From Periplaneta americana (taxonomy: Eukaryota > Arthropoda > Insecta > Blattodea > Blattidae): a DNA stretch of 64,000 bases. The first letter of the stretch is position 1. Each line of letters opens with the position of its first letter. Below, piece after piece: positions 42,845 through 48,041 of the stretch. Below the pieces are notes generated by a model. It was not told the origin of the DNA. It did no database searches and saw nothing but the letters and a program-made list of their open reading frames with translations. The DNA is taken from assembly GCF_040183065.1 (NCBI RefSeq), contig NC_091120.1, positions 22,105,708 to 22,169,707 of the forward strand, given 5' to 3'. Position numbers and translations under genes: made by a program.

Positions 42845-43017
42845 TTATTCTTGTATGTTCTCAGGAGGTGCTAGTTCAAAGCGTGGGCTGTCTTGCTGAT
42901 AAGAATTTCTGATAGCATTGTATAGGTTATATAGAGGATTTGTCTCTTCAGTGTTCTTGTCTGTTAGTTCTTCTGCTTCGTTGGTTAGACGGCATTTTAT
43001 GTCAATGTAGCAAGATT
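42845..43017 (-). CDS. inotocin: Inotocin exon 3: last two neurophysin Cys and C-terminal tail
   Basis: Follows TTTCAG and restores the frame as H-E-S-C. It supplies the cysteines of SCYIDIKC and then a 40-plus-residue acidic, Asn/Glu-rich tail to TAA at 42845-42847. An AATAAA overlaps the stop (42841-42846) and another lies at 42717-42722. Confidence 0.93.
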
Positions 43018-46000: not shown

Positions 46001-48041
46001 GTTTTTTGCCTGTATGCTTCTTGTCTATGCGGATGACGTGAATATGTTAGGAGAAAATACACAAACGATTAGGGAAAACACGGAAATTTTACTTGAAGCA
46101 AGTAGAGTGATCGGTTTGGAAGTAAATCCCGAAAAGACAAAGTATATGATTATGTCTCGTGACCAGAATATTGTACAAAATGGAAATATAAAAATAGGAG
46201 ATTTATCCTTCGAAGAGGTGGAAAAATTAAAATATCTTGGAGCAACAGTAACAAATATAAATGACACTCGGGAGGAAATTAAACGCAGAATAAATATGGG
46301 AAATGTGTGTTATTATTCGTTTGAGAAGCTCTTATCATCCAGTCTGCTGTCCAAAAATCTGAAAGTTAGAATTTATAAAACAGTTATATTACCGGTTCTT
46401 CTGTATGGTTGTGAAACTTGGACTCTCACTCTGAGAGAGGAACATAGGTTCAGGGTGTTTGAGAATAAGGTGCGTAGGAAAATATTTGGGGCTAAGCGGG
46501 ATGAAGTTACAGGAGAATGGAGAAAGTTACACAACACAGAACTGCACGCATTGTATTCTTCACCTGACATAATTAGGAACATTAAATCCAGACGTTTGAG
46601 ATGGGCAGGGCATGTAGCACGTATGGGCGAATCCAGAAATGCATATAGAGTGTTAGTTGGGAGACCGGAGGGAAAAAGACCTTTAGGGAGGCCGAGACGT
46701 AGATGGGAGGATAATATTAAAATGGATTTGAGGGAGGTGGGGTATGATGATAGAGACTGGATTAATCTTGCATAGGATAGGGACCGCTGGCGGGCTTATG
46801 TGAGGGCGGCAATGAACCTTCGGGTTCCTTAAAAGCCATTTGTAAGTAAGTATCTTAAAGTTTATAAAATGGATTTATTGTAATATTTCTGAGGTACAGA
46901 CTAGCTCTGCTATCACTTTCAAGGAGGCCCTGGAGCTAATACAATATTGTCAGAGTTCAGAAAGTGTTAACATTGTACGAAAGTGTATACATTTTAAGAT
47001 CAGTATTTTATTTTCAGCACTGACATTGAAAAGATAACCATATCATCATCATCAATATACAGAAATTATGAAAATCTAATTAGTAGAACCCCTATTATCC
47101 GTCACTCTATTAACCGATTGGTGGATTATTCATCTGTGTTTCTCTCTCTTTCTGCAGAAATATATTAAGTACCATACATTGTATTAGCACGTTATTTTTT
47201 TTCTAGATAGTGTTATTAAGCCTTTTTCCTTATAAAGTACGGTCTACTGTTCGAATTGTCGTACTGTATAACTTCTATATAAAATATCTTTTACAGCTGT
47301 CAAAAGAAATCTCGTGCTAAGTATAACAAAGTGTAAACAATTGAGTGTTTTGGGGAAAGAGAAACTGTGGCTCACCTCGCATCAGAATACGAGGTGTAAA
47401 TCTACAACACTAGACCTCCATTATTAATATATTTCCAGAGACAATCATTACAAGAAGATTCCTTGGCCCTTAAAAACCCATCGTTGACAACCAGACTTAA
47501 ATTAGTGAACTTCTCAGCCACTCCTAGCGTCTTAAATAAAAGACTATGGATGAAATTACAAAAGTATAAATATTCTTTAAATTTACGAAAATCTTTTATG
47601 GTACAGATTATCCGATTTTTTCGATTAACCTTTCAGTCAACCCCATTCATTACCACAGATAATAGAGGTTCTACCATAGTCTAGTATATACAGTTGCGAA
47701 GCTCAATATGTAGTAAATATGCAAACATTAGATAGTTGCTCACCACTAGGATAGCTAATATCGCCTCATTACAGGCAATGCAAAATAATACCGTCACAGT
47801 CTATTGTTTCTAGCACCCTCAAAACTCAAGCTTCGTGACTGTATATAGTAGACTGTAGTGATAAAAATTTTCCCAATTTCTTTAACAGTTGGTGTATTAC
47901 CTGTCTAATGGAATGTGTGCCTTCAATATGTCCTCCTGATCTCTTCCCTCCCTTAGGACAGTTGGTTATGAGACATGCCGAACAGATGCCAATGACGACT
48001 ACTAGTACAACTGCTGCAGAATTCCGTGTTTCTGGATACAT
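42845..48041 (-). CDS. inotocin: Inotocin (vasopressin/oxytocin-like) precursor, complete
   Basis: A secreted neurohypophysial-type prohormone. Exons on the minus strand are 48041-47901, 44266-44053 and 43017-42845; introns are GT-AG and phases agree (0, 1); total 528 nt, 175 aa. Residues 1-22 form a signal peptide with a V/I-rich core (VVLVVVIGIC) ending CSA. Residues 23-31 are the nonapeptide CLITNCPKG with its Cys1-Cys6 ring, then Gly for amidation and the KR cleavage site. Neurophysin follows from exon 1 into exon 3 with 14 Cys in family order (CARCG, HCYGPAICCG, GVCCTHESC, IKC). An acidic copeptin-like tail ends PPENIQE. Position 8 is Lys where the inotocins I remember have Arg. The intron positions match the classic neurophysin gene plan. 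Neuroendocrine expression is expected from the family. Confidence 0.96.
43077..43946 (-). mobile_element. Penelope-like element fragment with perfect 40-bp inverted repeat
   Basis: The minus strand from about 43900 to 43604 reads the end of a GIY-YIG endonuclease typical of Penelope-like elements: NCYMKYVGMKRNFRKRYNEH, HLINKGHELNN, KQINNNRNINTAEEYFI. A stop codon interrupts it once. Arms 43077-43116 and 43907-43946 are identical over 40 bp in inverted orientation, a terminal arrangement known from this group. It lies within inotocin intron 2. The reverse transcriptase part is absent. Confidence 0.8.
44053..44266 (-). CDS. inotocin: Inotocin exon 2: neurophysin core
   Basis: Follows TTTTCAG and begins with Cys (CARCGPAKLGHCYG). 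It carries 12 of the 14 neurophysin cysteines and ends in phase 1 before GTGAGG. Ring-binding features such as GPAICCG are kept. No frame damage. Confidence 0.95.
45176..45400 (-). mobile_element. RTE-like LINE 3' fragment
   Basis: An antisense, diverged copy of the 3' end seen at 3899-4690 in inotocin intron 1, head-to-head with the longer copy at 46017-46852. Confidence 0.85.
45447..45957 (+). mobile_element. RTE-type LINE, second family, C-terminal fragment
   Basis: Several broken frames read FVWSVALYRTETW, LGHWLRRNCLLKD, LEGMVNGRRVWD and ETKRKAENRK, a tail characteristic of a different RTE-like LINE from its neighbour. It lies in inotocin intron 1 and carries multiple stops and shifts. 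Confidence 0.75.
46017..46852 (+). mobile_element. RTE-like LINE, RT motif to 3' end
   Basis: The longest copy of this family here. It begins at the catalytic reverse-transcriptase box VYADDVNML and reads open for about 250 codons through [21 protein letters not shown] and [10 protein letters not shown]. It stops at TAG (46773) where sister copies have CAG; the remaining codons still read to MNLRVP. It ends GTAAGTAAGTA. 5'-truncated, in inotocin intron 1, on the opposite strand to the gene. Confidence 0.9.
47083..47677. mobile_element. pogo/Tigger-like non-autonomous element
   Basis: Inverted ends AGTAGAACCCCTATTATCCG (left) and, inverted, GTAGAACCTCTATTATCTG (right) have the typical AGTAGAACC-TATTATCCG form of insect pogo-group termini. 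No transposase frame survives. Directly abuts the 179-bp MITE. Confidence 0.75.
47677..47855. mobile_element. 179-bp MITE, copy 2
   Basis: Same length and ends as 8929-9107, about 85% similar by eye. Lies in inotocin intron 1, about 45 bp from the donor of exon 1. Confidence 0.85.
47901..48041 (-). CDS. inotocin: Inotocin exon 1: signal peptide, nonapeptide, cleavage site
   Basis: Encodes 47 residues. The ATG at 48041-48039 is the Met closest to the hydrophobic core and gives a normal 22-residue signal peptide; an upstream in-frame Met at 48077 would add 12 polar residues and lies close to the TATA box, so it is less likely. CLITNCPKG-G-KR follows directly. The exon ends CAG before GTAATA. 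Confidence 0.95.

Follow-up and report, generated by a model that had tools for sequence, protein, structure and literature searches.

A stretch of 64,000 nucleotides of American cockroach (Periplaneta americana) DNA, referred to here as the window, encodes the nonapeptide CLITNCPKG, and this raises the question of whether the locus is a working inotocin gene and what the lysine at position 8 of its hormone would mean. On the minus strand, with its stop and start codons exactly at the two ends of 42845-48041, we found a complete inotocin gene with three predicted coding exons (Table 1). Open reading frames and splice signals located by script join into one frame, running from an ATG at 48041 to a TAA ending at 42845, which gives a predicted precursor of 175 amino acids. 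We consider it almost certain that the American cockroach has here a functional inotocin gene of the oxytocin/vasopressin type, present as a single copy, for which we infer expression, processing, neurons and receptor pairing. An earlier note, made from the sequence alone, had claimed a full precursor in the canonical three-exon plan. This was borne out by the open frames, the GT-AG introns and the exon edges, one of which lies before neurophysin Cys10 and the other inside the Glu77 codon, in agreement with the vertebrate plan, in which we take the breaks to be close to neurophysin residues 9/10 and 76/77.

Table 1 Features of the inotocin gene (positions in the window) and pieces of the predicted receptor gene
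Feature	Position	Strand	Content and basis
Coding exon 1	47901..48041, 141 nt	-	Signal peptide MYPETRNSAAVVLVVVIGICSA, nonapeptide CLITNCPKG, GKR, SGGHIEGTHSIRQ; ATG, frame, GT donor
Intron 1	44267..47900, 3634 nt	-	Phase 0, GT-AG; contains retroelement fragments
Coding exon 2	44053..44266, 214 nt	-	Central neurophysin, CARCGP to CCTH; 12 of the 14 neurophysin cysteines
Intron 2	43018..44052, 1035 nt	-	Phase 1, GT-AG
Coding exon 3	42845..43017, 173 nt	-	ESCYIDIKCR, the neurophysin end with its final two cysteines; 47-residue acidic tail; TAA
Nonapeptide CLITNCPKG	47949..47975	-	Letters read back from the window
Lys8 codon AAG	47954-47952	-	Letters read back from the window
GKR amidation and dibasic cleavage site	47940..47948	-	Codons GGG AAG AGA; GGGAAGAGA
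TATA-like TATATAA	48090..48096	-	~50 bases upstream of the ATG; consensus match only
AATAAA, candidate polyadenylation signal	42718..42723	-	~120 bases beyond the stop; consensus match only
ATTAAA	starts 42782		Closer to the stop codon than the AATAAA
Receptor pieces	L002 1276-1794, L016 1366-1620, L015 1588-1701; C17 ~96.65-96.77 Mb		One strand, in order, ~114 kb

The predicted precursor comprises, in order, a signal peptide, CLITNCPKG, GKR, a 13-residue stretch ending in RQ, the neurophysin and a 47-residue acidic tail. Judged by hydrophobicity only, the signal peptide is hydrophobic around residues 8-21, with the strongest 10-residue stretches beginning at residues 8-12, and signal cleavage would fall directly before CLIT, after CSA. 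CLITNCPKG fits the nonapeptide pattern C-x4-C-P-x-G. The 17 cysteines of the precursor are made up of 14 in the neurophysin, 2 in the nonapeptide and 1 in the signal peptide. The earlier reading of CLITNCPKG-GKR followed by a 14-cysteine neurophysin was upheld when the precursor matched the whole 79-position profile of Pfam Hormone_5 (PF00184) at E = 6e-20 (72.3 bits, the cut-off being 27.2) and the solved structure of bovine neurophysin II (1npo) at E = 2.6e-17; because of these two matches, the neurophysin identity is not a matter of chance. In the alignment with bovine neurophysin II, all 14 cysteines coincide (14/14), 38 of the 81 aligned residues are identical, and neurophysin Arg8 and Glu47 are kept, two residues that we take to contact the hormone in crystal structures of neurophysin.

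These data bear on the reading that the locus is a decayed or unexpressed copy, in which production of the peptide has ceased and the frame has so far stayed open by chance. The system has been lost in some insect groups (PMC5153645), and intron 1 holds retroelement fragments, both of which fit such a copy. However, all three exons are open with intact splice sites, every one of the 14 neurophysin cysteines and both hormone-contact residues are kept, and vasopressin-type receptor exons are also in the genome, as described below. We regard decay as very improbable and a functional inotocin gene as the better reading of the locus.

We then consider copy number. The genome searched comprises 3,231,669,367 bases in 91 contigs, with the inotocin window on contig C4; the P. 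americana assembly PAMFEO1_priV1 (GCF_040183065.1) is described as 3.23 Gb in 91 scaffolds, 17 of them of chromosome size, built from PacBio HiFi reads and with a GC content of 35.5% (PMC12774602). The GC fraction of the window is 0.344. The neurophysin family search, which works exon by exon and scores the best candidates only, returned a single PF00184 locus in the genome, namely exon 2 of the inotocin gene (8 of 8 candidates scored), and no PF00184 match in 14 control genomes. Used as a tblastn query against the window, the precursor returned six hits; three are its own exons, and the others, at E = 0.84, 2.7 and 7.6, we take as chance. A paralogue or second copy was rejected, as the window search gave only the exons and chance-level matches and the family search of the genome gave one locus. 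The inotocin gene is apparently single-copy in the genome.

The surroundings of the gene are rich in repeated segments. Of the seven open frames in the window with 130 or more amino acids, six overlap two groups of repeated segments and the seventh lies at 6791-7186; Pfam recognised reverse transcriptase or RNase H in two of the four frames submitted. No neighbouring host gene was identified among the open frames of at least 130 amino acids in the 64-kb window, a size at which genes with short exons would escape. A retrotransposon fragment at 46056-46852 (+), probably of the non-LTR type, lies within intron 1 in the opposite orientation to inotocin, with RVT_1 in the frame 45996-46775. Copies of it occur at 3895-4688 (92.7% identity) and 30641-31040 (97.8% over 401 bases), and a more diverged inverted fragment lies at 45172-45395. 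Three copies of an RNase H-bearing fragment, 93-95% identical, lie at 53135-53935 (+), 28426-29060 and 62673-63233 and are probably retroelement (Pfam RNase_H, E = 5.5e-13 in 53135-53935). A tRNA-Ser (GGA) at 41467-41540 (+) was called by two programs and is overlapped by a 94-base inverted pair (41192-41285 and 41510-41603, 96.8% identity); weaker tRNA-like calls at 19283-19355 and 52651-52712 came from one program each. A 180-base repeat joins 47678-47856, in intron 1 near exon 1, with 8930-9108 (87.8% identical).

The earlier note had also proposed looking for an inotocin receptor elsewhere in the genome, and this search yielded three vasopressin/oxytocin-type exon pieces in order on contig C17. 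A consensus of receptor helices 2-3 gave eight genomic matches at E values up to 0.001, the best of them on C17 (E = 6.8e-23, 63% identity) and the second-best at 7.1e-10. The corresponding frame occupies C17 96653463-96653981 and is followed by GTAAGC. When this first piece was compared with solved structures, the best 60 of 393 matches were headed by the vasopressin V1a receptor (8.3e-42), with oxytocin and V2 receptors down to 7.3e-31; the next families among these 60 were the orexin and GnRH receptors at 5e-16 and weaker. A helix 6-7 consensus gave three matches, the best two on C17 on the same strand as the helix 2-3 piece, at 96744268-96744381 and 96767261-96767425 (90 and 114 kb past the first piece, E = 9.0e-4 and 3.5e-5), and the third on contig C2 (E = 0.0022). 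Against solved structures, one helix 6-7 piece placed V1a first (1.6e-8; other families 7.9e-4 or weaker) and the other placed V2 first (1.6e-6; other families 0.036 or weaker). Considered one at a time, the two helix 6-7 matches on C17 are weak; in one of them the frame crosses a TAG, probably because the match extends past the exon edge. For the part of the receptor from helix 4 to helix 5, tblastn in the locus of the first exon and the next 30 kb found no piece; with helix 4-5 and 6-7 queries the end of the first exon was matched there at E = 0.027 and the rest no better than 0.40. Because the C17 pieces match vasopressin/oxytocin receptors first, a predicted receptor gene of this type, at least 114 kb long and with predicted exon joins, is present on C17. 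With three receptor exons on another chromosome, ligand and receptor are thus both in the genome.

In this peptide family, neurophysin folding, dibasic cleavage, amidation, neuronal release and activation of a G-protein-coupled receptor form the usual pathway. In the cockroach, the precursor would enter the secretory pathway, where the neurophysin would fold around the nonapeptide, with Glu47 holding the free amino end, and would carry it into granules. Convertases would cut at KR, and the exposed glycine would be converted to an amide. The resulting CLITNCPKG-NH2, closed by a 1-6 disulfide ring, would be released from neurons, probably the suboesophageal ganglion pair of insects, and would act on the vasopressin-type receptor whose gene lies on C17. 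The calculated [M+H]+ of this amidated, ring-closed peptide is 945.46, against 973.47 for the Arg8 form. Two suboesophageal neurons of the ant Ooceraea biroi have been reported to contain the prepropeptide, and cockroach cells that may be homologous to them are also cited (PMC8244912). Counting against expression, no inotocin mass was matched in the accessory medulla of Rhyparobia maderae, a tissue other than the suboesophageal ganglion (PMC12604039).

The AAG codon confirms the lysine that the earlier note had read at position 8, whereas its suggestion that this form might be unreported did not stand. Cockroaches belong to the Polyneoptera. A survey of 269 species, with precursors in 144 (Liutkeviciute et al. 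2016, PMC5153645), reports CLITNCPKG in 8 of the 121 sequences with a mature peptide, almost exclusively in Polyneoptera, and thereby answers the search of polyneopteran peptide sets that had been advised: the peptide was already listed in 2016. The words cockroach, Blattodea, Periplaneta, Blattella and termite are absent from the main text of that survey, and so CLITNCPKG in cockroaches is implied by it and not named. Periplaneta is likewise absent from the main texts of the papers containing the string CLITNCPKG in the library searched, and no title on a P. americana inotocin peptide appeared in the literature searched (the CLITNCP string and the topics inotocin/vasopressin-like, cockroach, termite and Polyneoptera). 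The main text of PMC7179676, on Polyneoptera precursors, makes no mention of inotocin, and CLITNCPKG is absent from the main text of the review PMC7181382. RefSeq or the supplement of the 2016 survey may well already contain the P. americana sequence. The gene is a sound annotation: real, ordinary and already known in kind.

The same literature bears on whether the true residue is Arg8 and Lys8 arises from a mistake in sequencing or assembly. A single base change, AAG for AGG, would suffice. However, the matching assembly is HiFi-based (PMC12774602) and the Lys form has already been published for Polyneoptera (PMC5153645); because of these two points an error is unlikely, to a degree that we regard as negligible.

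What Lys8 would do at the receptor is a separate question. A term search of two pharmacology papers, PMC5286520 among them, returned no entry for Lys8. In PMC5286520 Arg8 and D-Arg8 are measured; with the D form, two receptors from insects show weaker binding and lower potency, and position 8 is described as important at human receptors. Such sensitivity speaks for Lys8 as a functional switch, whereby a receptor co-evolving with the peptide would favour Lys above Arg and give Polyneoptera a distinct pharmacology. However, Lys and Arg are both basic, and the first receptor exon keeps a glutamate aligning with the V1a 'LEIA', which we take to be Glu1x35 of PMC5286520. We consider the switch unlikely and, because of the shared basic character and the V1a-aligned glutamate, would expect little change in effect between Lys8 and Arg8. 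Lys8 would instead be the ordinary Polyneoptera state, most likely keeping a basic side chain in contact with acidic receptor residues. It is quite unlikely that the Polyneoptera pair has shifted from the Arg8/Pro8 of other arthropods, with a cockroach receptor that prefers Lys8 through a partly different contact; if true, a Lys8-preferring pair would be a natural parallel to the mammalian Lys/Arg vasopressin split.

These results fix the likely inotocin exons and, by family search, the single locus in a classic animal of physiology, and they place most of the probable receptor gene. Knockdown and pharmacology become straightforward, while knowledge of insect inotocins is unchanged.

Among known systems, the inotocin-like genes of Polyneoptera share with the cockroach gene the identical nonapeptide and the same layout of signal peptide, nonapeptide, GKR and neurophysin with conserved cysteines (PMC5153645). 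For another cockroach, Rhyparobia maderae, an arginine-vasopressin-like/inotocin precursor marked complete is on record (PQ049266; PMC12604039). Bovine vasopressin-neurophysin II has the 14 cysteines, neurophysin Arg8 and Glu47 in common with the cockroach precursor but carries a different nonapeptide, and the cockroach precursor ends in the 47-residue acidic tail; insect precursors are described as having no obvious similarity to copeptin (PMC5153645). The CLITNCPRG of Locusta migratoria and Tribolium has eight of nine residues in common with the cockroach peptide and differs in having Arg8 in place of Lys8 (PMC7181382). Locusta seemingly has 6-8 gene copies and the termite Zootermopsis one vasopressin gene (PMC4237046). 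The Colorado potato beetle, Leptinotarsa decemlineata, is included among the eight CLITNCPKG sequences of the 2016 survey (PMC5153645); it has two genes against the one found in the cockroach, and one of the two encodes CLITNCPKG-amide, as does the cockroach gene (PMC6585902).
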